This document shows, piece after piece, positions 44,248-60,100 of a stretch of 64,000 bases of DNA. How positions within the stretch are numbered: the first letter of the stretch is position 1; each line of letters starts with the position of its first letter. A model generated the notes under the pieces. It had not been told where the DNA came from. It did not search any database and saw only the letters and a list, made by a program, of their open reading frames with translations. This DNA comes from Acidovorax carolinensis (GTDB lineage: Bacteria; Pseudomonadota; Gammaproteobacteria; Burkholderiales; Burkholderiaceae_C): assembly GCF_002157145.1 (NCBI RefSeq), contig NZ_CP021361.1, forward strand, positions 2,225,001-2,289,000, in the 5' to 3' direction. The translations under genes and the position numbers were made by a program.

Positions 44248-45945
44248 TCAGGGGCTTGTTGCTGGCGCTTCTTTTTCCTGCAGCAGGCGCCACATCACCT
44301 TGCCGCTGCCGCTTTTGGGCAACGCGCTGACAAACTGCACGATGCGCGGCGCCTTGTACACCGCCATGTTTTCGCGGCACCAGTCGATGATCTGTTGTAC
44401 GGACGTGTCCTGGTGCGTGGGGCGCAGCACCACCACGGCCTTCACGGTCTCGCCCCGGTAGCTGTCGTTGGCGGCGATGATGCAGGCCTCCTGAACCGCG
44501 GGGTGGCGGAACATCAGCGCTTCCACCTCGGCCGGCCACACCTTGAATCCACTGGCGTTGATCATGCGCTTGAGCCGGTCGGTCAAGAAGAAGTAGCCGT
44601 CTTCGTCCATGCGCCCCAGGTCGCCCGAGCGGAAGAAGCGCTTGCCCTCGAACTCGATGAAGGCCGCAGCCGTGGCATCGGGCCGCTTCCAGTAGCCCTC
44701 GAACACCTCGGGGCCGTGGATGATGATTTCGCCCTGCTCGCCCACGGGCATCTCCTGCAGGGTTTCGGGGTCGATCACGCGGGCATCGGTGCCGATGAAC
44801 GGGATGCCCAGGCACTGCTGCTTGGGGTTGTCGGGCGGATTGGTGTGCGACGGCGCCGCCGTCTCGGTAAGCCCATACCCTTCTGCATAGCGCAGGCCAT
44901 ATTGCTCCAGCAGCCGCTGGGCCACGGCCTGGGGCATGGCCGCTCCGCCACCGCCGATATAAACCAGGCTCGATAGGTCGTACTGCGCAAAATTCGGGCT
45001 GGCCAGCAGGTCGATGACCATGGTGGGAATGTTGGTCCAGTTGGTCACCTGGTAGCGCGAGATCAGGCGCCCGGCCAGCTCGCGGTCCCACCGGGGCATC
45101 ACCAGCAGCGTGGCCCCCATGTAGATGGCCGCGTGCATCACGCTCACCATGCCCGTGATGTGGAACATGGGTACCACGGCCAGCGTCACGTTGTCGGCTG
45201 TTCCGTTGCCCCACAGGCTGCTGGCCACCGCGTTGTGCATGATGCTTTTGTGCAGGTGCATGCAGCCCTTGGGCAGGCCGGTGGTGCCGCTGGTGTAGGG
45301 CAACACGGCCAGGTCGCCCAGGCCCACCAGCAGCGCGGGGGGGGCGGCGGCGCAGGCCAGCGCATCGGCCCAGGCGTGCGCCTGACCGCCTTCGAGCGCA
45401 GGCAGGGCATGGACGGTGCACAGCCACTCGCGCCAGGTTTCGGGCTGTGCATCAGGGCCCGCAACGTCGGCGTCAAAAGCATCGGTGAACTGCGTCACCA
45501 CCAGGTGCGCCAGGCGCTCTGCGGGTGCCAGCGCGTTGCTCGCCTTGGCCAGCTCGGGCGCGAGGTCGCCAGTGGTGATGGCCACCTTCGTATCGGGGTC
45601 GGTGATGTAGTGCTTGAGCTCCTCGGCCCGGTTCATCGGGTTGACCGGCACCACCACCGCGTTGGCCCGCAGGATGGCGAAATGCGCCATCACCAGTTGG
45701 GGGCAATTCTGCATGCACAGCACCACGCGGTCGCCGCGCTGCACGCCCAGCTGCGCCAGCCGGGCGGCCAGGCGTTCAGCCCCTTCCACCAACTCCCGGT
45801 AACTCACCGACCGGCCAAAGAACACCAGCGCCGCCTTGTCCGGGTATCGGCGCGCACTGATAGCCAGGTTGTCCCACAGCGAGGTGGCGGGCAGCGTGAT
45901 GGAGTGCGGAAGGCGGCGAGGCCAGAACTTGAAGTGAGGGCGCAT
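44248..45945 (-). CDS. long-chain fatty acid-CoA ligase / AMP-forming acyl-CoA synthetase
   Basis: A 565-residue adenylate-forming enzyme. AMP motif LPYTSGTTGLPKGCMH, then YIGGGGAAMP, YGLTETAAPSHTNP, and FRSGDLGRMDEDGYFFLTDRLKRMI. The C-terminal catalytic lysine lies in LPKSGSGKVMWR. It activates a carboxylic acid to its CoA ester; similarity to medium- and long-chain ligases suggests a fatty acid. The ATG at 45945 has AAAGGAA upstream; the open frame extends 98 codons further with low-complexity sequence that I reject. Confidence 0.9.
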   Translation of the reverse strand: MRPHFKFWPRRLPHSITLPATSLWDNLAISARRYPDKAALVFFGRSVSYRELVEGAERLAARLAQLGVQRGDRVVLCMQNCPQLVMAHFAILRANAVVVPVNPMNRAEELKHYITDPDTKVAITTGDLAPELAKASNALAPAERLAHLVVTQFTDAFDADVAGPDAQPETWREWLCTVHALPALEGGQAHAWADALACAAAPPALLVGLGDLAVLPYTSGTTGLPKGCMHLHKSIMHNAVASSLWGNGTADNVTLAVVPMFHITGMVSVMHAAIYMGATLLVMPRWDRELAGRLISRYQVTNWTNIPTMVIDLLASPNFAQYDLSSLVYIGGGGAAMPQAVAQRLLEQYGLRYAEGYGLTETAAPSHTNPPDNPKQQCLGIPFIGTDARVIDPETLQEMPVGEQGEIIIHGPEVFEGYWKRPDATAAAFIEFEGKRFFRSGDLGRMDEDGYFFLTDRLKRMINASGFKVWPAEVEALMFRHPAVQEACIIAANDSYRGETVKAVVVLRPTHQDTSVQQIIDWCRENMAVYKAPRIVQFVSALPKSGSGKVMWRLLQEKEAPATSP

Positions 45946-46167
45946 GGGTAATTCCTTTAACCCGCAGCCTAGAGGCGATGGGCCTGGGTGGCATTGGGGA
46001 AGCCACCGATGCCGCGTCGCGCTGGTGACGCAAGAGCGACTGGCGGGCCACGGGCTATCGCCGGGGATTGCGGGGTGGAAGTGGGGAAACGACTTTCCCT
46101 CACGATGGCCTGCGCAGCTCACGGCGGCCCGTGACAGCCCGGCCTGCAACGGCCCCGATGCCTGGCA

Positions 46168-46200
46168 TTTCTTGCCAATAACCGCGCCATTGGCAAGAAA
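46168..46200. repeat. hairpin related to family 2 repeat
   Basis: TTTCTTGCCAAT (46168-46179) and ATTGGCAAGAAA (46189-46200) form a perfect 12-bp stem with a 9-base loop. The string ATTGGCAAGAAAA also occurs at 40311-40323. It lies in the 330-bp gap 45946-46275 before hsdR; nothing else is recognised there, and no hsdR promoter is obvious. Confidence 0.6.
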
Positions 46201-46275
46201 ACACAACCACAGCGCCTGCACACGACCAGTCAACCGCATCTTGCCACCCTAGAATGGCCCGCAGGGGGAGCAAGC

Positions 46276-49074
46276 ATGACGCCAGAGGCCAAAGCCAGGG
46301 TAACGATAGATGCACTGTTGGTGGCGGCGGGCTGGCACGTCTGCAATGTGGCGAATGCCAACATCCATGCCAGCACCGGCGTGGCCATCCGCGAGTTCCC
46401 GCTCAACAACGGCTTCGGTTTTGCCGACTACATGCTGTATATCAATGGCAAAGCCTGCGGCATCATCGAGGCCAAGAAGCAAGGCGCCACCCTGACCGGC
46501 GTAGAGCTGCAAAGTGGCCGCTACGCCCAAGGCCTGCCCACCAGCCTGCCCGCCTGGCATCGCCCCCTGCCCTTTGTGTGGGAAAGCACCGGCGTAGAAA
46601 CCCACTTCACCAACGGTCTGGACCCTGAGCCGCGCGCCCGCAGCGTGTTCGCCTTCTTCCGCCCCGAGCTGCTGGCACAGTGGCTGGCACTGCTGCCCCC
46701 GGCAGTAGGCAGCCAAGGTGTCAGCGAAGCGCCCAGCACCTTTCTGGCCCGCATGCGCGCCATGCCCAAGCTGGTTACCGAATGGGGCAGCGGCGGCGCG
46801 CACTATGCACTGTGGCCCGCCCAAATTGGCGCCATCACCAACCTGGAAAAAAGCCTCGCCGCCAACAAGCCCAAGGCCCTGATCCAGATGGCCACCGGCA
46901 GCGGCAAAACCTTCACCAGCATCGGCTTCATCTACCGCCTCATCAAGTTTGGCGGCGCGCGGCGCGTGCTGTTCTTGGTAGACCGGGGCAACCTGGCACG
47001 CCAGACCAAAAAAGAGTTTGACGCCTACGCCAGCCCCTACAACAACTACAAGTTTGGCGAGGAATACATCGTTCAGCACCTGCAAAGCAACCAGCTCGAC
47101 ACCAGCGCCCGCGTGGTCATCTGCACCATCCAGCGCATGTTCAGCATGCTCAAAGGGCGCGAGCTGACCGAAGAGGCCGACGAAGAAAGCACCGAACGCA
47201 TCGAAGGCCTGTTCAAAGACCCCGAGCCCATTGGCTACAACCCGGCCATACCCATCGAGAGCTTTGACATTGTGGTTACCGACGAGGCCCACCGCAGCAT
47301 CTACAACCTGTGGCGCCAGGTGCTGGAATACTTTGACGCGTACCTGATTGGCCTGACCGCCACGCCCAACAAACAGACCTTTGGCTTCTTCAACCAAAAC
47401 CTGGTCGTGGAATACGGCCACGCCCAGGCCGTGGCCGATGGCGTGAACGTCAACTACGACGTCTACCGCATCAAAACCGAAGTGAGCGAGCAAGGCGCCA
47501 AGGTGGACAAAGGCTTCTGGCTGGAAACGCAAGACAAGGCCACCCGCCGCAAAACCGCCTGGCAGCTGGACGACGACTTTGAATACCAGCCCGAAGAGCT
47601 GGACCGCGCCGTGCAAACGCCCGACCAGATCCGCACCGTGGTGCGCACCCTGCGCGACCGCTGGCAGCCCGACATGTTCCCCCAGCGGCAAGAGCTGCCC
47701 AAAACCCTCATCTTTGCCAAAGACGACAACCACGCCGAAAAGATTGTCGAAATCCTGCGCGAAGAGTTTGGCCGCGGAAACGAGTTTGCGCAAAAAATCA
47801 CCTACCGCAGCGCCCAGGGCGGCGGCACCAGCCCCGAGCAGCTGATTAAAGACTTCCGCACCGGCTACTACCCCCGCGTGGCCGTCACGGTGGACATGAT
47901 CGCCACCGGCACCGACATCAAACCGGTGGAAATCGTCGTCTTCATGCGCAGCGTGAAAAGCCGCAGCTTCTTCGAGCAGATGAAAGGCCGTGGCGTGCGC
48001 GTGTGCAAAGACGACGACCTGCGCAGCGTCAACCCCGGCGAACACATCAAGAAGGACCATTTCGTCATCGTCGATTGCGTGGGTGTGTGCGAGCGCGACA
48101 AAACCGACAGCCGCCCCATGGACACCAAGAAAAGCGTGCCCCTGGACAAACTGCTGCAAGCCGTGAGCCTGGGCAATGTGGAAGACGATGTCCTATCAAG
48201 CATCGCCGCCCGCCTGGCCCGGCTGGACAAAGACGCCAGCGATGCCGACCGCGCCAAGGTGGTAGAGCTGAGTGGCGGCAAAACCCTGCGCGAGCTGGCG
48301 CGCGGCATTGTGGACGCCCTGGCCATCGACGCCACCCAAGACATGTCGCCCGCCGAGGCCAACCAGCGCCTTCGGGATGCAACCAAGCCATTCGCCGCTC
48401 CCGCCCTGCGCGAGCAGCTATTAAAAATGAAGCAAAAGGCCGACCTGGTGATCGACACGGTCACCCAAGACAGCCTGCTGCACGCCGGCTTTAGCGAAGG
48501 CAGCGACCGCGAAGGTCACGCTGGGGCGCTGGTGCAAAGCTTTGAAGATTTCATCAAGCAGCACAAAGACGAAATCACCGCCCTGCAAATCTTGTATAGC
48601 CGCCCCACGCGCGCCCCGCTCAAGTTTGAAGACGTGCAAGCCTTGGCCGACGCCCTGCACGCCCCGCCGCTGAACATTGACGAAGGCGCCCTGTGGCAGG
48701 CCTACGCCACACTGCGCAAAGGCGCAGTGAAAGGCGCCACGCAGCGCCGCCTGTTGACGGACTTGGTCAGCCTGGTGCGCTTTGCCATGCAGCAGACCAA
48801 CGAACTGGTGCCCTACCCCGAGCGCGTGCAGGCCAACTTCAAAGCCTGGCTGGCCCAGCACCAGCAGACAAGCAACAACAACCCGTTCACCACTGAGCAA
48901 CAACACTGGCTAGAAATGATCCGCGACCACATCGCCGCCAACCTCGGCATTGAAATAGACGACTTTGAATACGCCCCCTTCAATGCCCAAGGCGGCCTGG
49001 GCAAAGTGCACCAGCTCTTTGGCGCGGAACTGCCCAAGGTGATTGAAGAACTGAATCGGGAGTTGGCGGCGTGA
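46276..49074 (+). CDS. hsdR: Type I restriction enzyme R subunit
   Basis: A 932-residue motor/nuclease subunit. N-terminal PD-(D/E)xK nuclease with D51 in GFADYM and E65-x-K67 in IIEAKKQG. Walker A ATGSGKTF (206-213), DEAH-type motif VTDEAHRS, SAT-like LTATP, and helicase motif VI region QMKGRGVR. The C-terminal domain (TTEQQHWLEMIRDHIAANLGIEIDDFEY) is the HsdM/HsdS contact region. It appears intact. Its stop overlaps the hsdS GTG (GTGA). First gene of the defence island; its partner hsdM lies 6.5 kb downstream. Confidence 0.95.
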   Translation: MTPEAKARVTIDALLVAAGWHVCNVANANIHASTGVAIREFPLNNGFGFADYMLYINGKACGIIEAKKQGATLTGVELQSGRYAQGLPTSLPAWHRPLPFVWESTGVETHFTNGLDPEPRARSVFAFFRPELLAQWLALLPPAVGSQGVSEAPSTFLARMRAMPKLVTEWGSGGAHYALWPAQIGAITNLEKSLAANKPKALIQMATGSGKTFTSIGFIYRLIKFGGARRVLFLVDRGNLARQTKKEFDAYASPYNNYKFGEEYIVQHLQSNQLDTSARVVICTIQRMFSMLKGRELTEEADEESTERIEGLFKDPEPIGYNPAIPIESFDIVVTDEAHRSIYNLWRQVLEYFDAYLIGLTATPNKQTFGFFNQNLVVEYGHAQAVADGVNVNYDVYRIKTEVSEQGAKVDKGFWLETQDKATRRKTAWQLDDDFEYQPEELDRAVQTPDQIRTVVRTLRDRWQPDMFPQRQELPKTLIFAKDDNHAEKIVEILREEFGRGNEFAQKITYRSAQGGGTSPEQLIKDFRTGYYPRVAVTVDMIATGTDIKPVEIVVFMRSVKSRSFFEQMKGRGVRVCKDDDLRSVNPGEHIKKDHFVIVDCVGVCERDKTDSRPMDTKKSVPLDKLLQAVSLGNVEDDVLSSIAARLARLDKDASDADRAKVVELSGGKTLRELARGIVDALAIDATQDMSPAEANQRLRDATKPFAAPALREQLLKMKQKADLVIDTVTQDSLLHAGFSEGSDREGHAGALVQSFEDFIKQHKDEITALQILYSRPTRAPLKFEDVQALADALHAPPLNIDEGALWQAYATLRKGAVKGATQRRLLTDLVSLVRFAMQQTNELVPYPERVQANFKAWLAQHQQTSNNNPFTTEQQHWLEMIRDHIAANLGIEIDDFEYAPFNAQGGLGKVHQLFGAELPKVIEELNRELAA

Positions 49075-49394
49075 GTGAACTTTCCATGATTCCACTTCGC
49101 GACTTGATTCTGGAATCTCAGAACGGGCTCTCGAAACGTAGCGGCGCAGATGGGATGGAAACACCGGTATTGCGACTTGCAAACATAACAGCAGGCAGCA
49201 TCGACGAGTCAGACCCCAGAGAATTTCGCCTCACTGCCAAGGAACTTGCCAAGTACGCACTCCAACACGGCGACCTCGTTTGCATCCGAGTAAACGGCAG
49301 CAAGGCTCTAGTTGGCCGGGTGATCCAATTCCGAGCGAATCGCGTTTGGGCGTACTGCGATCACTTCATTCGCTTGCGACCGAATCAAGCCCTA
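49071..49394 (+). pseudogene. hsdS: hsdS 5' fragment, interrupted by IS630-family element
   Basis: 108 codons of the Type I specificity subunit, from the GTG overlapping the hsdR stop (an ATG at 49086 is the alternative). It contains most of the first target-recognition domain (LRLANITAGSIDESDPREFRLTAKELAKYALQHGDLVCIRVNGSKALVGR..). The frame runs into the insertion and stops two codons later (GTG TCC TGA). Removing the insertion plus one TA restores ..[18 protein letters not shown].. exactly. Confidence 0.93.
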
Positions 49395-50477
49395 GTGTCC
49401 TGAGTTAGAAATTCGCAGACAAAATCTTTCGATGCTTGCAAGGATGTCGTCGGCGGACTTGGCCCAGACGAATGGTTTTGGATCCGCGTTGTTGAGTTCG
49501 AGGTATTCGCGGATTGCTTGTTCGAGCTGTCTTGTTGATCTGTGCGTGCCGCGACGGATGCACTTCTCGGTCAGGGTGGCGAACCAGCGCTCGACCTGGT
49601 TCAGCCAGGATGCAGAGGTGGGCGTGAAGTGCACGTGAAACCTGGGATGTCTGCCGAACCATGCCCTGATTGAGGGGGTCTTGTGCGTGCCGTAGTTGTC
49701 CATCACCAGATGCACGTCCAAGCCAGCAGGCACGTTGGCTTCGATGGTTCGCAGAAATTGCAGGAACTCCGTGCTGCGATGGCGCCGATGCAACTCCCCG
49801 ATCACTTCGCCCGTGGCAATGTCCAGCGCCGCAAACAGCGTCGTCGTGCCATGGCGCATGTAGTCGTGGGTTCGCCGCTCGGGGATGCCCGGTGCCAGCG
49901 GCAGGATCGGCTGTGTACGGTCCAGCGCCTGGATCTGGCTCTTCTCATCCACGCACAACACCATCGCCTTGAGCGGCGGATCCATGTACAGGCCGACAAT
50001 GTCGCGCACCTTCTCGACGAACAGCGGATCACTGGAGAGTTTGAAGGTTTCATGGCGGTGCGGCTGCAAGCCGAAAGCCCGCCAGATTCGACTCACAGCC
50101 GTCTGTGACACATCCATGGCGCGCGCCATACTGCGCGTGCTCCAGTGCGTGGCACCAGCGGGCACGGACTCCAGCGTCTTGGCGATGACGGCATCGACTC
50201 GGGCATCGTCGATCGTACGCGGTGCACCCGGGCGCGGTGCGTCAAGCAGACCGTCCAGCCGCAGCTGGACAAACCGACCGCGCCACTTCGATACCGTCTG
50301 CTGCGTGACCCGCTGGCGCGCTGCCACCACTTTGTTATCCGAACCTTCGGCACAGGCCAGCACGATGCGCGCTCGCAACGCCAGAGCCTGCGCCGTCTTG
50401 CGACGCTTGGTCAGCGCGATCAGCTGTTCGCGCTCCGTCACGCTCAACACCAATGGAGTCTTTGGTCTTCCGCTCAT
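49392..50477 (-). CDS. IS630-family transposase
   Basis: A 361-residue DDE transposase. N-terminal helix-turn-helix ([35 protein letters not shown]), then the catalytic triad: Asp in [13 protein letters not shown], Asp in [13 protein letters not shown], Glu in [16 protein letters not shown]. The start is the ATG at 50477 (MSGRPKTP). The reading frame has no stop of its own inside the element: TAG is built from the duplicated target TA plus the next host base (49392-49394). It lies antisense to hsdS. Confidence 0.93.
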
Positions 50478-50557
50478 GGCCACCTCATCGTGCAATGACA
50501 CCACACGACTGATTGCATTGGCAGAAAATAATTCAATGAATTTTTAACTCAGGACAC
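49395..50557 (-). mobile_element. complete IS630-family insertion sequence (1163 bp)
   Basis: The ends GTGTCCTGAGTTA (left) and TAACTCAGGACAC (right) are perfect 13-bp inverted repeats that extend imperfectly further in (GAAATTC/GAATTTT). The element is flanked by TA at 49393-49394 and 50558-50559, the target duplication expected of this family. It carries a single intact transposase gene, and the precise junctions suggest a recent insertion. Confidence 0.95.
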
Positions 50558-50559
50558 TA

Positions 50560-51618
50560 GTGGATCATCGGTATTTGGCGCACTACTTCAACTCGCAGAC
50601 TGTAAGGCGCCACATCGAATTGAACATGGTGTCCAGCGCCGGGCAGAACACCGTCAGTCAAGGCACGATGCTGGACATTCCTGTGCCATGTCCCGGCCTT
50701 GAGACGCAGCGCGAAATCGTCGCCGAACTCGAAAAACAGTTCTCCCGCCTCGACGAAGCCGTCGCCAACCTCCAGCGCGTCAAAGCCAACCTCAAACGCT
50801 ACAAAGCCTCCGTCCTCAAAGCCGCCGTCGAAGGCCGCCTCGTAGAAACCGAAGCCTCCCTGGCCCGCCGTGAAGGCCGCACCTACGAGACCGGCGAACA
50901 GCTTTTGCAGCGGATTCTTGGGGAGCGGCGGGCGAAGTGGGCGGGGCGTGGAAAGTACAAAGAGCCGGACGCTGCAAATCAGTCCGTACTTGGTGGCTTG
51001 CCTGACGGGTGGACGTGGATTGCTGTTGACGCCATTGCTTTCGTGACGAAGCTCGCAGGTTTTGAATACACGAAATACGTCACATACGCGAATGATGGTG
51101 ACCTCGCTGTATTGAAAGCTGAAAACGCAGGGCCGGATGGGTTTAGGCGGACCGACTTCTCTCGCGTCCACAGCGATTCAGTTAGTACCCTTACTCGGTC
51201 GCGAGTTGGGGCTGGAGATCTATTGATGGTCTTCGTTGGCGCCGGAACCGGAAACGTCGCCTGCACACCGAATGACCGGGAATACTTTCTTGGTCCCAAC
51301 ATCGCCATGATTCGGGTAGACCCAGCGAATGTGAATTCGCCCTATGTTGAGATGTTTCTTCGATCACCTACTGGCAAGAATTTAGCCCTAGGACTCACTA
51401 AGGCGGTTGCGCAACCTTCATTGTCAATGGGGAACATTCGAATGATTCCCGTGGCACTGCCGCCAATCGCCGAGCAAGTCCGAATCGTCGCCGAAGTAGA
51501 CCGCCACCTGTCCATCATTCGCGAAGTCGCAGCCGAGGTCGATGCCAACCTCCAGCGCGCGCAGGCGCTGCGGCAGGCGACCCTTGCGAAAGCCTTTACA
51601 GCATCAACTCAACATTAG
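50560..51618 (+). pseudogene. hsdS: hsdS 3' fragment (second half of specificity subunit)
   Basis: 352 codons continuing hsdS in the same frame: the end of the first recognition domain (VDHRYLAHYFNSQTVRRHIELN..), central conserved region (ETQREIVAELEKQFSRLDEAVANLQRVKANLKRYKASVLKAAVEGRL), second recognition domain (about 50990-51460) and C-terminal conserved helix (EQVRIVAEVDRHLSIIREVAAEVDANLQRAQALRQATLAKAF). It begins with a GTG, so it could be translated alone as a long half-S, but no ribosome site is visible. Base composition falls toward A/T in the second recognition domain. Whole hsdS would be 460 residues. Confidence 0.9.
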
Positions 51619-51629
51619 GATTTGCACCA

Positions 51630-53024
51630 ATGAAGTTTCGATTGCCTGAGCTAGAGATTCCCTCTGATGACCCGTTTCGTAACGACGCACTTGAGCGTAA
51701 GCCAGCCGTGGAGTTTCTTGCTGGACTACTTGACAAGTTCAACGGCCCGTTTGTGCTGGCGCTTGATTCGCCATGGGGAACAGGTAAAACGACGCTAGTG
51801 AGAATGTTGAAAGCCAAACTGGAGCAGGCGAATTTCCAGTGCGTGTACTTCAATGCCTGGCAGACCGACTTTGTTGATGATCCGTTGGTGGCATTGGTGT
51901 CAGAGTTGGATTGCATTGATTTTGTGGATGGCGAGGCTAAGACCACTTTCAAAAAGCATCTCACTAGTGTCAAGAAGATAACCACTGCTGTAGCGAAGCG
52001 TGGATTGATTGCAGGAGCAAAGGCAGCAACTCTTGGCGCATTGGATTTGGAGCGCGAGTTTGAGGCTGTTGCGGCCGACGTCGCTGGTGGTGTTACTGGT
52101 GATGCGATCGATGCTTTTCAAAAGGAAAAGGCTGCGTTGAAGAAGCTCCGCGACGACCTTGAGGCGGCAGTAGCTCAATTGAAAGAGGGTGGAAAGCGGG
52201 ATTCACTCATCTTCTTCATTGATGAGTTGGACCGTTGCCGCCCCACATTTGCAATTGAACTTTTAGAACGTATCAAACACCTGTTTGATCTGTCGAATAT
52301 CGTTTTTGTACTTTCTGTTGATAAGGCGCAGCTTTCTGCGAGTGTTGCGTCGGTTTATGGCGAAAAGTCAGACACGCAGGAATACTTGAGGCGCTTCTTT
52401 GATCTTGAGTTTGGCATTCCGAAAATTGACTCCAAGCGTCACACCACAACACTGCTCACCCGGTTTGGGATGGACGATATTTTTGTAGGGCGCAGAGGGG
52501 AATTGCAGTACGACAAGAGTCACTTTGTTGACTACTTTTCTGCACTGGCAGATGTGTTTCAGTTGTCGTTGCGAGCCCGTGAGCGATGCGTCACCATGTT
52601 GGCGGTCGTCATGCACCAAACGCCGGAAAATCACTATCTTGACGCGATTTTGGTGTCGTATTTGATTGCCCTCCGTACAAAGCAACCTGAATCCTTCCGT
52701 GCTTTGTGCAAAGGTACGTTGTCTGTGGGGGCAGCTATGGAGGCGTTGAAGGCTTTACCGGGTGGAAGCGAGCTAGTGGCAGATCGTCCAGGTATGCTGA
52801 TTGAATCCTATTTGCTCGCGGGCGATCCGAATACTGACCGAGTGAATGCGCATTACAAAAAGCTCGAAGACCTTTGGAAGTCAAATGAGGGTGATCCTGC
52901 CGAGCGCTCACGTGCGCAGGAAATGTTGAATTTTCGCAATCGAATAGTTGCGGGTTATCGCAATAGATTCGATTACAGAACATCAGCGTCAAAGATTGAT
53001 GTCGCGGTATCTTTTAGAGATTGA
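51630..53024 (+). CDS. KAP family P-loop NTPase
   Basis: A 464-residue NTPase. Walker A SPWGTGKTTL (about 47-56), CVYFNAWQTDF, and Walker B LIFFIDELDRCRP (193-205) followed by ELLERIKHLFDLSNIVFVLSVDKAQL are diagnostic of the KAP group (STAND-related). The insert between the Walker motifs includes a weakly hydrophobic stretch (about 118-140) that may contact a membrane. Codon use is clearly more A/T-rich than flanking genes, which suggests separate acquisition. It starts 11 bp after hsdS on the same strand. KAP NTPases occur in several anti-phage loci; a defence role here is inferred from context. Confidence 0.88.
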   Translation: MKFRLPELEIPSDDPFRNDALERKPAVEFLAGLLDKFNGPFVLALDSPWGTGKTTLVRMLKAKLEQANFQCVYFNAWQTDFVDDPLVALVSELDCIDFVDGEAKTTFKKHLTSVKKITTAVAKRGLIAGAKAATLGALDLEREFEAVAADVAGGVTGDAIDAFQKEKAALKKLRDDLEAAVAQLKEGGKRDSLIFFIDELDRCRPTFAIELLERIKHLFDLSNIVFVLSVDKAQLSASVASVYGEKSDTQEYLRRFFDLEFGIPKIDSKRHTTTLLTRFGMDDIFVGRRGELQYDKSHFVDYFSALADVFQLSLRARERCVTMLAVVMHQTPENHYLDAILVSYLIALRTKQPESFRALCKGTLSVGAAMEALKALPGGSELVADRPGMLIESYLLAGDPNTDRVNAHYKKLEDLWKSNEGDPAERSRAQEMLNFRNRIVAGYRNRFDYRTSASKIDVAVSFRD

Positions 53025-53042
53025 TATGAAAAGGCTAGTAGT

Positions 53043-53375
53043 GTGAATCAGCCTTTCTCCCTCCGCATTTTCGTCGCAGACGGCGACCCCGACGGCCTGC
53101 GCATCGTCGACAAGTAGGGGGCGACACCGAGCCAGGTCCGCGTGCTGCGCATCCGCTTGCCGGGCGATCTGCGGCGTTGCAAATCCTCGCCATGGCAATG
53201 GCCATGTCTGCGGTTTGCGCCTTGCATCTCATCCCGGCCAGCGGCGCGCCGCATCACGGCCCTGGCCCAGCGTCGCCCCGACTGGATCGGCAAGGCGCTG
53301 GTGTTCCCGCGTGCGCTGCTGCCGCAGGTCAAGGCCCGGCCCGAGCTGGCGCAGACCGGGGTGTACCTGCTGTGA
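53043..53375 (+). pseudogene. GIY-YIG nuclease gene broken by repeat insertion
   Basis: A GTG at 53043 opens [24 protein letters not shown] then TAG (53115-53117). After a 162-bp inverted-repeat element the same protein resumes at 53280: DWIGKALVFPRALLPQVK, ARPELAQTGVYLL, then TGA at 53373. This is the N-terminus of a family of GIY-YIG nuclease proteins found near restriction loci; GVY is the first half of the GIY motif. The rest, including the YIG half, is replaced by a second 162-bp element. No functional nuclease can be made. Confidence 0.78.
53118..53279. mobile_element. 162-bp inverted-repeat element containing a family 2 repeat
   Basis: The ends GGGGCGACACCGAGCCAGG (53118-53136) and CCTGGCCCAGCGTCGCCCC (53261-53279) pair with 16 of 19 positions. 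Inside is the family 2 unit: GGGCGATCTGCGGCGTTGC, core CGCCATGGCAATGGCCATG, GCGCCTTGCATCTCATCCC. It lies within the GIY-YIG coding sequence. No gene is encoded. Confidence 0.72.
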
Positions 53376-53537
53376 GGAGCCTGCGCGGCAGAAGGAGCGT
53401 CGGCTGCAAAGCGGCTGCGGCAGTCCGTTTTTCACCGCCTTCTTGCCCCATAGCAGGGCTATGGGCCTGCGAAGGCGGCAAAAACTGTCCTCGCCGGAAC
53501 CGCTTTTCGCTTCGACACCTTCTGCCGCACAGGCTCC
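53376..53537. mobile_element. second 162-bp inverted-repeat element
   Basis: GGAGCCTGCGCGGCAGAAGG (53376-53395) and CCTTCTGCCGCACAGGCTCC (53518-53537) pair at 19 of 20 positions. The centre is a strong nested hairpin: CCGCCTTC/GAAGGCGG (53435-53442/53471-53478) enclosing CCCATAGC-AGG-GCTATGGG. It follows directly on the stop that ends the nuclease remnant. The remaining stretch 53538-53605 shows nothing recognisable. Confidence 0.72.
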
Positions 53538-53605
53538 GCAAGCCGCGCCAACAGCGGAACTGCGATCCCCACCCGCCATGGATGTTGCGCGCATGACCGC
53601 GTACT

Positions 53606-53660
53606 TTGTCCATTATTGAGATTTGTCCAACAATCGTGGACAATCATCAAAAATGGACAA
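53606..53660. promoter_or_regulatory. four-box symmetrical operator of the AbiE-type locus
   Basis: Boxes TTGTCCA at 53606-53612 and 53623-53629, and TGGACAA at 53637-53643 and 53654-53660. Spacings are N10, N7, N10, so the four 7-mers form two nested palindromes about one centre. The last box overlaps the ATG of the antitoxin gene (ATGGACAAA). This is a strong candidate for cooperative autorepression by the antitoxin. Confidence 0.82.
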
Positions 53661-54720
53661 AACACCTCCCCCACCTGAAACCCTTCTCCTGAACGCGGCG
53701 TTGCAGGCCGCTCGCGACCTGGGGCTGGACGCGCAATGGGAGCCCATTCAACCGCAGGGGGGCGTGGCGCATGCAGACGCCGTGCTGCAGATTGGCCGCG
53801 GTGGCAAGGGCCAAAGGTACGTGGTCGAAGTGCGCCGCCAGTTGCGCCCGGCCAACCTGGGCGCTGCCCTGCATCAGCTCGACCGGCAAGCGGCGGCGCA
53901 CAGCTTGCCAGGGCTCTTGGTGGCCGACTACATCCGCCAGGATATGGCAGACGCCCTGCGCAAGCAGGGGCGTGAGTTTGTCGACACGGTGGGCAATGCC
54001 TTCATTCAGCAGCCCCATGTTCTGGTATGGGCCACAGGCCGCAAACCCTTGACCAAGGCAGCGGCGCCGCAGGTGGGGCGGGCCTTTCAATCCACCGGTT
54101 TGCAAGTGCTGTTTGCACTGCTTTGCCACCCCGAGTGGGTCAATTTGCCCTACCGCGAGTTGGCAGCACGCGCTGGTGTAGCGCATGGCACGGTGGGCTG
54201 GGTCATGCCAGACCTGCAGAGCCAGGGTTTTGTGGCAGACCTCAATGGCAAGCGCGGCACCCGCCGGTTGTTTGATGGCGAGCGACTGCTCGCGCAGTGG
54301 GCAGACGCCTATGCCCGCCAGCTGCGGCCGCGCACCTTGCTGGGCCGTTACTACGTGCCGGCTATTGCCGATTGGCAAGAGTGGCCGCTTGCCCAGCATG
54401 GTGCCCAATGGGGCGGCGAGCCCGCTGGCGCGCTGCTTACCAGTTACCTCACGCCCGGCGAGCTGACGATGTATGCCGACAAACTGCCCGGCCCACTGGC
54501 AGCACGCTACCGCTTTGCCAAAGAACCAGACGTGGCGCACAAGGCCGTGGTGGAGGTGCGCCGCCGGTTTTGGCATTTTCCTCAAGACGAGATGGCTGGG
54601 CCTTGTGTACCGCCCGTGCTGGTGTATGCCGACCTGATGGCCACCGGCGACGCGCGGTGCCTTGAAACTGCCAAACGCCTGTACGAAGACCATGTTGCAC
54701 GACTTATCCGCCAGGTTTGA
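53653..54720 (+). CDS. AbiEi-type antitoxin / transcriptional regulator
   Basis: A 355-residue protein resembling the type IV AbiEi antitoxin group. A winged-helix-like segment lies at about residues 150-210 (STGLQVLFALLCHPEWVNLPYRELAARAGVAHGTVGWVMPDLQSQGF). The N-terminal part has ADAVLQIGRGGKGQRYVVEVRRQL, resembling a nuclease-fold D..E-x-R/K arrangement, which may be structural only. It is longer than classical AbiEi. The ATG at 53653 lies in an operator box, fitting autoregulation. The gene overlaps the toxin gene by 29 bp. Confidence 0.8.
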   Translation: MDKTPPPPETLLLNAALQAARDLGLDAQWEPIQPQGGVAHADAVLQIGRGGKGQRYVVEVRRQLRPANLGAALHQLDRQAAAHSLPGLLVADYIRQDMADALRKQGREFVDTVGNAFIQQPHVLVWATGRKPLTKAAAPQVGRAFQSTGLQVLFALLCHPEWVNLPYRELAARAGVAHGTVGWVMPDLQSQGFVADLNGKRGTRRLFDGERLLAQWADAYARQLRPRTLLGRYYVPAIADWQEWPLAQHGAQWGGEPAGALLTSYLTPGELTMYADKLPGPLAARYRFAKEPDVAHKAVVEVRRRFWHFPQDEMAGPCVPPVLVYADLMATGDARCLETAKRLYEDHVARLIRQV

Positions 54721-55534
54721 TCTGGTGCCGTTGGCACAGGTAGTACGCCCGCTGCGGGCGGTGGCACTGCCGCTGGGCACAGACTTTTTTCTGATGGGGG
54801 CTGCTGCGCGCGACGTGATGCTGCTGCATGTGCATGGCATCGACACCCAGCGAAAAACACAGGACATGGACTTTGGCGTGATGGTGCGCGACTGGGGCAC
54901 TTTCGCTGCCTTGCGCCAGGCGCTGATTGAGTGCGGGGAGTTTGAGGCCGTATCTAACGATGCCACCCACAAACTGCGCCATAAGCAAACGAAGTACCCA
55001 CTGGACATCGTGCCGTTCGGCGGCGTGGAACGGGCCGACCGCACCCTGGCCTGGCCCCCTGATGAGCACACCGTGTTTGACTGCTTTGGCATGCGTGAAG
55101 CGCTGCAAGCCAGTCACAAGGTGCAGTTACCAGAAAACGTATGGGCTCAGGTGGCGAGCATGCCTGCGCTGGCCATGCTCAAGATCACTGCTTGGCAAGA
55201 CCGCAAACTGACACACCCTGGGCGTGATGCGCCGGATTTGCTGCTTTACCTGCGGCACTATCTTGAATGCGACAACTACGAATACGCAGGCACCCAACAC
55301 GCCGATCTATTCGAGGTAGACGACTTTGACCATGAAGAGGTCAGCGCACGGCTGCTGGCCCGCGACATGCTGCCACTGATGGACGCGCCTGCTGCCCGGC
55401 GCATCGTGGCGATATTGCAGCCAGAAACAGATGAGCAAGGGCCACTGTTGCTGGCCAAGCAGTCTGGCGTGGCGCTGGCGCGGGCACGCCGAATGATCCA
55501 TGCGCTTTGCACTGAACTCTTTCAGAAAACCTGA
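54692..55534 (+). CDS. AbiEii-type nucleotidyltransferase (putative toxin)
   Basis: A 280-residue nucleotidyltransferase-like protein. DFFLMGAAARDVMLLHVHGI (G-x3-RD) followed by TQDMDFGVMV supplies the paired acidic residues (DxD) of the polymerase-beta fold. DIVPFGGVE may hold the third. AbiEii-type toxins use GTP or other NTPs to modify cellular RNA; the exact activity here is unknown. The ATG at 54692 lies inside the antitoxin gene, ensuring coupled translation. The neighbouring hsdM begins 20 bp after its stop. Confidence 0.8.
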   Translation: MLHDLSARFDLVPLAQVVRPLRAVALPLGTDFFLMGAAARDVMLLHVHGIDTQRKTQDMDFGVMVRDWGTFAALRQALIECGEFEAVSNDATHKLRHKQTKYPLDIVPFGGVERADRTLAWPPDEHTVFDCFGMREALQASHKVQLPENVWAQVASMPALAMLKITAWQDRKLTHPGRDAPDLLLYLRHYLECDNYEYAGTQHADLFEVDDFDHEEVSARLLARDMLPLMDAPAARRIVAILQPETDEQGPLLLAKQSGVALARARRMIHALCTELFQKT

Positions 55535-55553
55535 TTCACCAGAACCATCCAAA

Positions 55554-57050
55554 GTGAGCATCACCACCAACTCCCTCGTCCAGAAGCTCTGGAACTACTG
55601 CAACGTGCTGCGCGACGACGGCATGAGCTATGGCGACTATGTGGAGCAGCTCACCTACCTGCTGTTCCTGAAGATGGCCGACGAGCGATCGCAGCCGCCG
55701 TACAACCAGCCCAGCATCGTGCCAGCAGCCTACGCCTGGCCCACGCTGCTGGCCAAGGACGGCGACGAGCTGTTTGACCACTACCGCCATGCGCTGGAAA
55801 AGCTGGGGCAAGAAAAAGGCACGCTGGGCCTGATTTTTGGCAAGGCGCAAAACAAGTTTCAAGACCCGGCCAAGCTGCGCCGCGTGGTCGTGGATTTGAT
55901 CGGGGCCGAAACCTGGACGATTCTGGGCGCCGATGTAAAGGGCGATGCATATGAGGGCCTGCTGGAGAAAAACGCGCAAGACACCAAGAGCGGCGCGGGC
56001 CAGTATTTCACGCCACGCGCACTCATTCAGGCCATGGTGGACTGCATTGCCCCGCAGCCCGGCGAGCGCATTACCGACCCGGCTTGCGGCACGGGTGGCT
56101 TCTTGTTCACCGCGCACAACTACATCACCAGCCATAACAAAAGCCTGACGCGCGACCAGCTCAAGCACCTGAAGGAAAAAGCCTTCACCGGCTATGAGCT
56201 GGTGCAGGGCACGGCCCGCGTGTGCGCCATGAACATGATGTTGCACGGCATTGGCTCCGAAAAGCAGGTGCCCGTGGTGGTGGGCGACGCACTGGCGGCC
56301 GACCCCGGCGAGCGCTATGAGGTGGTGCTGGCCAACCCGCCCTTTGGCAAGAAGAGCAGCACCGTCATCGTGGGTGAAGACGGCCGCACCAGCACCGAGA
56401 AGGACACCATCGAGCGCGACGACTTCTGGGCCACCACCAGCAACAAGCAGCTTAACTTTGTGCAGCACATCAAGACGCTGCTCACCACCCACGGCCGCGC
56501 CGCGGTGGTGCTGCCCGACAACGTGCTGTTTGAAGGCGGCGCAGGCGAGACCATTCGCAAAAAACTGTTGCACGAGTGCGATGTGCACACGCTGCTGCGC
56601 TTGCCCACGGGCCTGTTCTACGCCCAGGGCGTAAAGGCCAACGTGCTGTTCTTTGAAAAGAAGCCCGCCAGCGAAACGCCATGGACCAAGCAGCTGTGGA
56701 TTTACGACCTGCGCACCAACAAACACTTCACGCTCAAGACCAACCCGCTGACCCGCGCTGACCTGGACGAGTTTGTGGCGCTGTACCAGGCCGATAGCCG
56801 CCAGCAGCGGCAGGCCACCTGGTCACCCGAGAACCCCGCGGGCCGCTGGCGCGCTTACGGCTACGACGAACTGGTGGCGCGCGACAAAACCAGCCTGGAC
56901 ATCTTCTGGCTCAAAGATGATTCATTGGCCGACAGCGACAACCTGCCCGCGCCCGGCGTGATTGCCCTGGAGATCGTGGAAGACCTGCAGGCCGCGCTGG
57001 AACAGTTCAAGCTGATTGCGGGCGACCTGGGGGAAGTGGTTGAAGAGTGA
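55554..57050 (+). CDS. hsdM: Type I restriction-modification methyltransferase (M subunit)
   Basis: A 498-residue adenine methyltransferase. N-terminal helical domain (SLVQKLWNYCNVLRDDGMSYGDYVEQLTYLLFLKMADE), SAM motif ITDPACGTGGFL, and catalytic motif LANPPFG. It appears intact. The GTG at 55554 matches the family start (V/M-SITTNSLVQ); an ATG at 55500 would lie inside the toxin gene. The usual order is M-S-R; here hsdM is last and separated from hsdR-hsdS by an NTPase, a broken nuclease gene and a toxin-antitoxin pair. It is convergent with hrpA. Confidence 0.93.
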   Translation: MSITTNSLVQKLWNYCNVLRDDGMSYGDYVEQLTYLLFLKMADERSQPPYNQPSIVPAAYAWPTLLAKDGDELFDHYRHALEKLGQEKGTLGLIFGKAQNKFQDPAKLRRVVVDLIGAETWTILGADVKGDAYEGLLEKNAQDTKSGAGQYFTPRALIQAMVDCIAPQPGERITDPACGTGGFLFTAHNYITSHNKSLTRDQLKHLKEKAFTGYELVQGTARVCAMNMMLHGIGSEKQVPVVVGDALAADPGERYEVVLANPPFGKKSSTVIVGEDGRTSTEKDTIERDDFWATTSNKQLNFVQHIKTLLTTHGRAAVVLPDNVLFEGGAGETIRKKLLHECDVHTLLRLPTGLFYAQGVKANVLFFEKKPASETPWTKQLWIYDLRTNKHFTLKTNPLTRADLDEFVALYQADSRQQRQATWSPENPAGRWRAYGYDELVARDKTSLDIFWLKDDSLADSDNLPAPGVIALEIVEDLQAALEQFKLIAGDLGEVVEE

Positions 57051-57104: not shown

Positions 57105-60100
57105 TCAGCTCTGAATCTGCGCCCACAACTTGTCCAGCCGCTTCACACTCACCGGCTGGGGCGTGCGCAGCTCTTGCGCGAAGAAGCTCACGCGCAACTC
57201 TTCCAGCAGCCAGCGCAGCTCTTGCATGCGCGCATCCACGGCACCCTTGCGCTCGGCCACCAGGCGCCAGTAGCGCTGCTCTTGCGGGCGCAGCTCGGCC
57301 AGTTTGGCGGCGTCGCGGGCGGGGTCGGCGCGGTATTTGTCGAGCCGCAGGGTGATGGCCTTGAGGTAGCGGGCGTAGTGGGCCAGTTGCGTCCACGGAG
57401 CTGCGGCAATGAAGTTCTTGGGCACCAGGCGTTGCAGTTGCTGCTGTGCGTCCGCCGTGGCCTCGGGCGCGTTCTTGGTGTCCTTGATCTTGCGGGCGGC
57501 TGCCGCGTATTCGGTGAGGATGGTGGCCGCCAGGCGGGCAACTTCATTGGCGATCAGCGTGAGGCGGCCCCTGCCCTCTTCCACGCGGCGCTTGAAGGCG
57601 AACTCGTCGGTGGGCAGCGGGTCGAGCAAAAAGGCGCGGTCGAGCGCCACGTCGATGATCTGGGTGCGCAGTTCTTCCTGCGTTCCGAGCGGCATGTAGG
57701 CCACGGCCATCTTCTGCAGGTCGGGAATGTTCTTTTCGAGGTACTTGAGCGCGTCCTTGATCTGCAGCGTAAACAGGCGGCGCAGGCCCGCGCGGTGCTT
57801 GGCGGCTGCCACTTCAGGCTCGTCGAAAACTTCGATGGTCACGGCGTCGCCGCCGTCGATGAGCGCCGGAAAGCCAATCAGCGTCTGGCCGGCCTTCTTG
57901 ATCTCCATGAGCTCGGGCAGCTCGCCAAACGCCCAGGTGGTGTAGCGCTGGCCAGCCGGGGTTGAGGGGGCCGATGGCGTGGTGCTGGCTGGTTTGGCGG
58001 GCTGGGCAGGCTGAGCGCCACCTTTTACTCCTGATTGAATAGCTGCTTGCGCTTTACCATCAAGCGCTTGAGGCATATTTGATTCAGATTTCGAACCCTC
58101 TGCCGCACCGCCGAGCTTGAGCCCCGCCAGCGCCTGGAACGCGCCGCGCGCCTTGGCGCCCCACTCGGCCTTGAGCGCGCCCAGGTTGCGGCCGTGGCCG
58201 AGCTGACGGCCGTGCTCATCGACCACGCGGAAGTTCATGAACAGGTGCGGGCTGAGCATGTCGAGCTTGAAGTCGGCGCGCTTCACATCGAGCGAGGTTT
58301 CGTCGCGCACCTGCTTGAGCAGCACGTCGGTCAGGCTGCCGGTGCCAAAACGCTCGGGTGCGCCCAGCAGTTCGGCCAGGCGCGTGGCGCTGTCGGGCAG
58401 CGGCACAAAGCGGCTGCGCGGGCGCTGGGGCAGGCTTTTGAGCAGGGCCTGGATCTTGTCCTTGAGCATGCCGGGCACCAGCCACTCGCAGCGCTCGTCG
58501 CTCACCTGGTTGAGCACGAACAGCGGAATGGTCACCGTGATGCCGTCGCGCGGGTCGCCGGGCTCGTGCAGGTAGCTGGCGGCGCAGTCCACACCACCCA
58601 GCCGCACCGTCTTGGGAAAGGCGTTGGTGGTGATGCCTGCGGCCTCGTGGCGCATGAGCTCTTCGCGCGTGAGCTTGAGCAGGTCGGGCTGCTTTTTGCT
58701 TTCCTCACGGTACCAGGCCTCGAAGCTGTGGCCGCTGCACACCTCGGGCGGCAGTTGCTGGTCATAAAAGGCGTAAATGAGTTCGTCATCCACCAGCACG
58801 TCCTGGCGGCGCGACTTGTGTTCCAGCTCTTCGACCTTGGCGATGAGCTTCTGGTTGGCGGCCAGAAACGGCAGCTTGGTCTCCCAGTTGCCGCCCACCA
58901 GCGCTTCGCGGATGAAGACCTCGCGCGCGGCGTGGGGGTCTACCTTGCCGAAGTTCACGCGGCGGTTGTTGTAGACGACGATGCCGTAGAGTGTGGCGCG
59001 CTCCAGCGCCACCACTTCGGCAGACTTTTTCTCCCAATGCGGGTCGAGCAGCTGCTTCTTTAAAAGGTGCCCGCCCATCTGCTCCAGCCACTGCGGCTCG
59101 ATGGCGGCGATGCCCCGGCCAAACAGGCGCGTGGTTTCGACCAGTTCCGACGCAATGATCCAGCGGCCCGGCTTTTTGGACAGGTGCGCGCCGGGGTGCT
59201 TGTAGAACTTGATGCCGCGTGCGCCCAGATACCAGTCTTCCTCGTCGCTCTTGGCGCCCACGTTGCCCAGCAGGCCGGCCAGCATGGACAGGTGCAGCTG
59301 CTCGTAGCTGGCGGGCTGGGTGTTGATCTGCCACTTGTGCTCGGTCACCACCGTGAGCAGCTGGGTGTGGATGTCGCGCCACTCGCGCAGGCGGCGGATG
59401 CTGATGAAGTTCTGGCGCAGCAGCTGCTCATATTGGCGGTTGCTGAGCTTGTGGGTGGGCGCAGGCACCGCGGCCGCGGGCGCGGGCTGCACGGCCGCAA
59501 CCGTGCGCTGGGCCACGGGCAGAAAGGCTTGCGAAGGGGCCTTGTGGGCGGCCATGGCCTTCTGCGCGCGGGCCGATGGCAGGCTGGGCGCGCCGCCCCG
59601 GGCCTCGTTGATCCACTTCCACAGCTTCAGGTAGCCGCTGAACTCGCTCTTGTCGTCGTCGAACTTGGCCTGCGCCTGGTCGGCCTGCTGCTGCGCCTCC
59701 ATGGGGCGGTCGCGCACGTCCTGCACGCTGAGCGCGCTGGCAATCACCAGCACCTCATCGAGCGCCTTGCGGTCACGCGCCTCGATGATCATGCGGCCCA
59801 CGCGCGGATCGAGCGGCAGGCGTGACAGCTCTGTGCCCATGGGCGTGAGTTCATTGGCATCGTCCACCGCGCCCAGTTCGGCCAGTAGCTGGTAGCCGTC
59901 GGCAATCGCGCGGCCCGAGGGCGCCTCGATGAACGGAAACTGCGTCACGTCACCCAGGTGCAGCGACTTCATGCGCAGGATGACGCCTGCGAGCGAGCTG
60001 CGCAGGATTTCGGGGTCGGTAAAACGCGGGCGGCTGTTGAAGCTGGCCTCGTCGTACAGGCGGATGCAGATGCCGTTGGCCACACGGCCGCAGCGGCCGG

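Follow-up and report, generated by a model that had tools for sequence, protein, structure and literature searches.

The stretch of Acidovorax carolinensis DNA analysed here (the window: all 64,000 nucleotides, bases 2225001-2289000 of a single 4.12-Mb contig) carries a type I restriction-modification (RM) locus which, with a probability that we put at roughly 0.75, is a horizontally acquired system with a slot for defence cargo between its specificity gene, hsdS, and its methyltransferase gene, hsdM, whose hsdS has been cut by an insertion sequence (IS) of the IS630 family and whose passenger genes are probably independent of the RM enzyme. The anatomy of the locus, the insertion, the recurrence and turnover of the cargo and its collinearity with the hsd genes can be read directly from the sequences. 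The block comprises, on the plus strand, hsdR, hsdS, a KAP NTPase gene, a GIY-YIG remnant, AbiEi, AbiEii and hsdM, and the open reading frames (ORFs) and domain matches bear out this order, which a first-pass annotation of the window had proposed. The same annotation had all genes on the plus strand with overlaps or short gaps at most junctions, which holds for the strand of the named genes and fails at two places: the gap of about 0.6 kb between KAP and AbiEi, and hsdS, which it took for one gene and which consists of two pieces around a 1,163-bp, minus-strand IS630 element that it had missed.

The evidence for a slot comes from related systems. Searching 399 genomes of the family with HsdM returned 74 rows. 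In 53 of them HsdM was at least about 56% identical to that of the window, which we call the window's kind. Apart from the window itself there were 52 such matches, and 51 were fetched (G043 was left out; G and L numbers are our handles for genomes and loci), giving with the window 52 stretches, of which 11 were dropped for want of a recognised hsdR or hsdS, some at contig ends and some with no hsdS detected. All three genes were present in the other 41, always in the order R-S-M (41/41), and the hsdS-hsdM (S-M) gap measured at least 500 bp in 40 of them, with a range of 0.8-7.1 kb and a median of about 2.0 kb. At the hsdR-hsdS (R-S) junction of the same 41 loci the median was -22 bp, that is, an overlap, and at least 500 bp separated the two genes in six, the window being one of these through its IS. 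As a contrast class we used all 20 distant HsdM rows (43-48% identical) from other genomes: here the order was R-M-S in every case (20/20), the median M-S gap was -13 bp, and gaps of at least 500 bp occurred between M and S in three loci and between R and M in four. In L158, the sole gapless locus of the window's class, hsdM has lost its N-terminal half and abuts hsdS, and a deletion seems to have removed the slot.

A search of the phylum (398 genomes) gave ten HsdM matches outside the family, and seven of the ten stretches held R, S and M, all in the order R-S-M. Six of these seven complete loci have 548-2490 bp between S and M, while in L216, a distant relative, hsdS overlaps an apparently intact hsdM with no cargo between them; an unfilled form therefore exists. 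The window's own genome contains a second R-S-X-M locus (X being the slot), L194 at 2105000-2124500. With an HsdM only 28% identical to that of the window, it represents another type I lineage, and its slot of 1.7 kb contains a Fic fragment as well as a RhuM-family gene. It was removed from the slot counts; with it the filled slots would number 41 of 42.

The proteins encoded in the slots were scanned against Pfam and PADLOC, and a recognised gene or remnant was found in 37 of the 41 complete loci, identified through its own match or because it clustered with a protein that had one. The matches were Fic, HipA_2, DUF3037, AlbA_2/Schlafen, RelA_SpoT, reverse transcriptase, SLATT_5, RES, PIN, MarR with a nucleotidyltransferase, GmrSD, DUF1016/YhcG, HicB, DUF3800, PD-Lambda-5, PDC-M21A/B, PDC-M32A, PDC-S42 and PDC-S14, and both KAP and AbiE recur in the slot; not every slot gene is of a defence type, since an ABC transporter, a GNAT acetyltransferase, a PCC-domain gene and an integrase were found there too. 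Three slot genes of 288-452 amino acids (aa), at L131:12725-13588, L127:10869-12224 and L125:10523-11671, had no Pfam match at E 0.001 and no PADLOC match at E 1e-5, and stand as candidates. Where HsdM is at least 90% identical (25 pairs of loci), a cargo family was common to seven pairs and none was counted as common to the other 18, the count being made on plus-strand ORFs of at least 120 aa, so that remnants like the GIY-YIG piece of L121 or that of the window do not enter it. Orientation is nearly uniform: in the 42 loci obtained when L194 is counted, 71 gap ORFs are homologous to an ORF of some other slot, and 65 of them lie on the strand of the hsd genes; the six on the minus strand comprise four antisense frames of the near-identical L134 and L141, one antisense frame over the window's GIY-YIG remnant, and a short, weak case in L189. 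We read the hsdS-hsdM position as a cargo slot, in which hsdR, hsdS and hsdM are kept and the contents are exchanged.

In the window one of the two genes that frame the slot is broken. The 5' piece of hsdS, 107 codons on the plus strand (49071-49391), was recognised by the PADLOC Specificity_I models (best 4e-17) and gave no match in Pfam, and its ORF continues into the IS up to a stop at 49403. The 3' piece, also on the plus strand (50560-51618, 352 aa; Methylase_S 8e-11, PADLOC Specificity_I 1e-49), carries the second target-recognition domain. The element between them (49395-50557, 1163 bp, minus strand) has everything by which the IS630 family is recognised: a family transposase (ORF 49392-50504; NF033545 at 268 bits, cut-off 100), terminal inverted repeats (arms at 49392-49414 and 50538-50560, each 23 nt long with the adjoining CTA or TAG counted in, and 96% complementary) and, within CTAG, a duplicated TA (49393-49394 and 50558-50559). 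Five 100%-identical copies of the transposase, the window's included, are present in the genome; all four copies readable at both ends (4/4, again with the window's) sit between CTA and TAG; for the fifth, a single end was seen. The identity of the copies and the CTAG setting of four of them suggest recent IS630 activity in this genome.

The split falls after about codon 107 of hsdS. Since the alignment of the 3' piece with the HsdS of relatives begins at about residue 113-146 and extends almost to their C-terminus, and HsdS in the ten relatives measured is 415-479 codons long from stop to stop, the cut probably lies within the first target-recognition domain. The N-terminal piece (49071-49391) is 30-32% identical to residues 256-374, the second recognition domain, of HsdS in L129, L133 and L158, and there is a hint that recognition domains may have been shuffled between the two HsdS positions.

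Genes for HsdR, HsdM and HsdS are thus all present together according to Pfam and PADLOC, hsdS in two pieces and without an uninterrupted specificity subunit in the window. The hsdR ORF (46276-49074, plus strand, 932 aa; Pfam EcoEI_R_C at E 6e-43, ResIII at 4e-35 and HSDR_N) is unbroken, and in hsdM (55500-57050, plus strand; N6_Mtase 1e-70, HsdM_N 1.6e-12) the homology to relatives starts near residue 19, at about 55554, in the alignments. The locus is type I by descent and, in its present state, probably defective. Methylation and restriction both need HsdS. In Vibrio cholerae DRC193A, which has an IS256 copy in hsdS, the methylation mark is absent, and the authors call the IS the likely cause (PMC11411939). 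On these two grounds the RM enzyme of the window is probably silent, the system being inactive or altered with its usual restriction and methylation lost. Since hsdS is split and the RM system probably inactive or altered, the passengers cannot be taken at face value as a back-up of the window's RM complex.

The first passenger is a KAP-family P-loop NTPase of 464 aa (51630-53024, plus strand; KAP_NTPase 7e-38). It belongs to the PADLOC family PDC-S20, whose model PDLC04959 matches it over nearly its full length (residues 1-462, 9e-126), and its Walker A (GxGKTT) and Walker B (DELDR) residues are invariant among 40 aligned homologues. Among 7997 candidates scored, 2867 homologues were found at E 1e-10, and we inspected the neighbourhoods of the best 80 of at least 560 loci, which are not a random sample and include several contigs that end within 10 kb and two loci, L113 and L114, that look like near-duplicates. 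HsdM or HsdS was present near KAP in 13 of the 80, a lower bound, given that the profiles derive from the window's type I group and that not all contigs are long; KAP stood immediately after hsdS in eight, and in five it was flanked on either side by hsd genes (Gammaproteobacteria, with two near-duplicates, Pedobacter, Nitrospirales and Latescibacterota). No HsdM or HsdS was recognised by the profiles in the stretch examined around the remaining 67, so that KAP, unlike an effector of the PrrC type, is not confined essentially to type I systems. From the four strong N6-methylase matches in the 4.12-Mb genome we estimate that about 2% of random genes would lie within 10 kb of one. Because 13 of 80 loci compare with this estimate of about 2%, and 67 lack recognised hsd genes, we take KAP to be drawn to hsd loci without needing them.

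A similar picture was obtained within the family, where 200 genomes gave seven strong PDC-S20 matches (E <1e-40), the window's included. The six others (L197-L202) had no collinear hsd genes in the stretch examined, that of L197 being cut by the contig end; in L201 hsdM and hsdS lie about 6 kb from KAP on the opposite strand, and a weaker match, L203, directly follows hsdR. KAP is located between hsdS and hsdM in the relative L129, and since the two KAP proteins are 46% identical despite HsdM being 85% identical, the window and L129 slots probably took up KAP separately. Elsewhere, genes for DUF1156 and DUF499, components of the Hma type, precede a KAP relative in L043 (3536-9979), another KAP relative follows a ResIII-type protein in L046, and a third stands before a protein of L053 that has a SEFIR/TIR domain and matches NACHT weakly. 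The predicted structure of KAP is of moderate quality (predicted local distance difference test, pLDDT, 78.5; predicted template modelling score, pTM, 0.70), and the best PDB matches in a fold search were RADAR RdrA and Orc/Cdc6-type ATPases, with TMq at most 0.47 among the matches listed. With a moderate model and low TM-scores, the search points only to an AAA-like ATPase and nothing more specific. Alignment with PDB sequences at E 0.01 gave no relative, NCBIfam no match above its cut-off, and a search of open-licence literature without preprints gave no paper naming PDC-S20.

Directly after KAP stands a decayed gene of the GIY-YIG/DUF4357 (PDC-S14) family (about 53043-53376, plus strand), with an in-frame stop at 53115 and its C-terminal part gone; a profile made from relatives matches it at 2e-14, confirming that the first-pass annotation was right to see a remnant here. 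Genes of this family, 287-317 aa long, are found in the slots of four relatives (L127, L128, L129 and L131), and the family name derives from the L127 homologue, which when scanned gave DUF4357 in Pfam and PDC-S14 in PADLOC. The copies in L121 and L133 are broken, and that of L126 ends at the contig end. Because the intact gene starts 4 bp before the end of KAP in both L129 and L047, KAP and GIY-YIG/DUF4357 look like a pair. Between the remnant and the AbiE promoter sits an imperfect inverted repeat of about 190 bp (53380-53570, no strand assigned). Over some 160 bp it shows 73% identity with its reverse complement; it was rejected as a mobile element, no second copy being found in the genome.

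The passengers nearest to hsdM are an AbiEi-type antitoxin or regulator (53653-54720, with an alternative TTG start at 53623; AbiEi_2 7e-29) and a predicted AbiEii-type nucleotidyltransferase toxin (54662-55534; AbiEii 1.5e-8), both on the plus strand and, like KAP, with unbroken frames. Their ORFs overlap (53623-54720 and 54662-55534), the arrangement expected of AbiE type IV. Against PDB both gave insignificant matches only, and NCBIfam had none at E 0.001. A candidate AbiEi operator and promoter (53605-53661, plus strand) holds the half-site TTTGTCCA twice and its reverse twice, the half-sites spanning a promoter-like pair at 53616-53644 and the AbiEi ATG at 53653; the promoter scan itself is weak (one found versus 0.4 expected, standard deviation 0.6). 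Inverted half-sites lie upstream of AbiEi in five of the six loci examined, as TTTGTCCA in the window and L125 and as the variant TTGTTCA in L123, L126 and L157; the sixth, L187, has a different repeat. AbiEi represses its own promoter, and the candidate operator layout fits such self-repression. There is almost no space between AbiEii and the hsdM downstream of it, so the predicted AbiEi promoter may act on hsdM as well. Few genomes of the family have AbiEi_2 (five of 200), and in three of the five (G000, G040 and G113, the window's genome among them) it stands just before an hsdM of the window's kind; the remaining two loci are L157, whose stretch is free of hsd genes, and L159, with only a short AbiEi piece. 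Two more slots with AbiEi, L123 and L187, were fetched through HsdM.

The whole block lies between an acyl-CoA-ligase-like gene on the left (44248-46239, minus strand; labelled from its translation) and a helicase gene on the right (57105-61157, minus strand; DUF3418 and helicase domains) that we take to be hrpA. These two core genes adjoin, 0.66-1.5 kb apart, in four of the five congeners searched; in the fifth the hrpA match is partial and the ligase match is a 54% relative elsewhere. No HsdM match at E 1e-60 was found in any of the five. Since the flanking genes are neighbours in four congeners and HsdM went unmatched in all five, the RM genes and their passengers were most likely acquired as a block between two core genes in the window's lineage.

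Several points weigh against the reading of an acquired cargo slot beside a silenced RM enzyme. Three of the 41 loci (L184, L185 and L190) have no recognised cargo and one (L158) is empty; our count somewhat overstates turnover, because ORFs below 120 aa, minus-strand ORFs and remnants are excluded; and the relatives are partly non-independent, HsdM being 97% identical between L134 and L141 and between L131 and L133. In addition, the hsdS 3' piece could still work as a half-subunit, as the Tn5-truncated S subunit of EcoDXXI does (PMC3874165). That the IS has thereby re-programmed the system, giving the half-subunit a new symmetric target, strikes us as quite improbable: the 3' piece retains its recognition-domain match and has EcoDXXI as a precedent, but that precedent (PMC3874165) keeps the N-terminal part whereas the larger part remaining in the window is C-terminal, and the methylation mark is missing from the V. 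cholerae strain whose hsdS is interrupted by IS256 (PMC11411939). A plain defence island, in which genes have piled up at a site that tolerates them and the S-M position as such is not selected, would agree with the great diversity of the cargo. We consider it unlikely, since the R-S gap is below 500 bp in 35 of the 41 loci whereas the S-M gap is at least 500 bp in 40 of the same loci, the contrast class keeps M and S within 500 bp in 17 of 20, and the cargo is collinear.

The first-pass annotation had proposed that KAP and the nucleotidyltransferase toxin are back-up defences coupled to the RM complex. The linkage itself is not accidental: KAP lies in the S-M slot of L129 and follows hsdS in eight of the 80 KAP loci, AbiEi_2 precedes this hsdM in three of five genomes, and the recurrence of KAP between hsdS and hsdM, which that annotation had offered as a check, was seen in L129, where GIY-YIG/DUF4357 overlaps KAP by 4 bp, while hsd genes flank KAP on both sides in five of the 80. 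Together with the single strand, the short gaps and the precedent of PrrC (PMC3874165), these positions speak for a layered, physically coupled arrangement in which KAP and AbiE sense failure of HsdRMS, as PrrC does with EcoprrI. Such coupling is nevertheless highly doubtful, since 67 of 80 KAP loci have no profile-recognised HsdM or HsdS in the stretch examined, six of the seven strong PDC-S20 matches in the 200 family genomes are without collinear hsd genes, KAP also occurs beside DUF499/DUF1156 and ResIII genes, hsdS is broken in the window, and cargo is swapped among near-identical RM systems (18 of 25 pairs share none). A dedicated KAP-RM system was rejected because most KAP loci are without recognised hsd genes and the cargo is swapped. 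Layered defence in relatives with an intact hsdS, for which the neighbourhood is the sole positive support, likewise has a low probability. There is a real if minority chance that the AbiE pair is an addiction anchor that retains the type I locus, its autoregulated promoter setting hsdM expression and KAP being a free rider. An AbiE-type pair stands directly before hsdM in the window, L123, L125 and L126, a PDC-M21A/B pair is last before hsdM in L128, with pairs clustering with it in L136 and L139, and the half-sites at AbiEi are operator-like; against this, many slots hold genes without a toxin-antitoxin label, and the outgroup L216 carries no cargo at all, its hsdM and hsdS overlapping. That the R-S-X-M lineage is a dedicated cargo platform, whose intact members practically always carry a collinear passenger, mostly a defence or toxin gene, in the S-M slot, and in which passenger promoters like the AbiEi-controlled one condition hsdM, tying passenger loss to the state of the RM system, while passengers persist when an IS silences the RM enzyme, seems rather unlikely to us.

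If, as we prefer, the window holds an acquired type I locus with a cargo slot and a silenced RM enzyme, the S-M slot would exchange mostly genes of defence or toxin-antitoxin type, read in the direction of the operon, and in the window would have come to hold a PDC-S20 KAP with a decayed GIY-YIG/DUF4357 partner and an AbiE-type pair next to hsdM. An IS630 copy has cut hsdS, with the probable loss of restriction and methylation, and the passengers would act independently of HsdRMS. Judging from its family, KAP would be an ATP-driven effector triggered by phage infection, possibly weakened through the loss of its partner, and AbiE would be a self-regulated toxin-antitoxin pair that may help to retain the locus and drive hsdM.

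The locus belongs to a known class of type I loci with embedded genes, and the first-pass remark that such genes can lie between hsd genes agrees with published cases in C. jejuni, V. cholerae, enteropathogenic Escherichia coli (EPEC) and EcoprrI. In Campylobacter jejuni, rlo genes lie between hsdR and hsdS and mlo genes between hsdS and hsdM (PMC5183652). These loci are alike in having extra genes at the R-S and S-M junctions and differ in lineage and cargo; in the window's lineage R-S is mostly closed and S-M nearly always filled. For the rlo/mlo arrangement PMC5183652 cites Miller et al. 2005. The type I locus of Vibrio pathogenicity island 2 (VPI-2) in V. cholerae embeds the defence pair TgvAB (PMC11411939) and, with IS256 in hsdS of DRC193A, resembles the window in both its embedded defence genes and its IS, but its cargo is GmrSD-like whereas that of the window is KAP plus AbiE, and the window's IS is IS630. 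In EPEC, DarTG2 is embedded between hsdS and hsdR and regulated by RptR (PMC12255303), again a toxin-antitoxin pair within a type I operon, but at another junction, with another toxin and with RptR regulation. EcoprrI has the extra gene prrC inside its type I operon, PrrC being held by the RM enzyme (PMC3874165); the extra gene is the likeness, whereas coupling of that kind is highly doubtful for the window. AbiE type IV systems share with the window AbiEi_2 and AbiEii in overlapping ORFs; the window's inverted repeats are operator-like, and its pair, with a predicted toxin, is embedded before hsdM. The PDC candidates of PADLOC reportedly stem from a guilt-by-embedding search and await validation (PMC12988326); the window's KAP matches one such candidate family, PDC-S20, and the intact L127 homologue of the remnant another, PDC-S14. 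The first-pass view that the arrangement was not a described system was therefore too strong, KAP being PDC-S20 and embedded genes having been published (PMC5183652, PMC11411939, PMC12255303, PMC3874165).

It is the near-constant filling of the S-M slot that makes this lineage interesting, and no published statement of it was found in the open-licence literature without preprints, although one may well exist elsewhere. If it is true, the flanks formed by hsdS and hsdM would be a simple address for finding new candidate defence and toxin genes, and the slots of this family already yield KAP, GIY-YIG/DUF4357, AbiE, Fic, HipA-like, Schlafen, RelA/SpoT, reverse transcriptase, GmrSD and DUF1016 genes along with several unrecognised ones. 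Natural loci with a broken hsdS, compared with their intact relatives, would moreover offer a way to ask whether the passengers need the RM enzyme.

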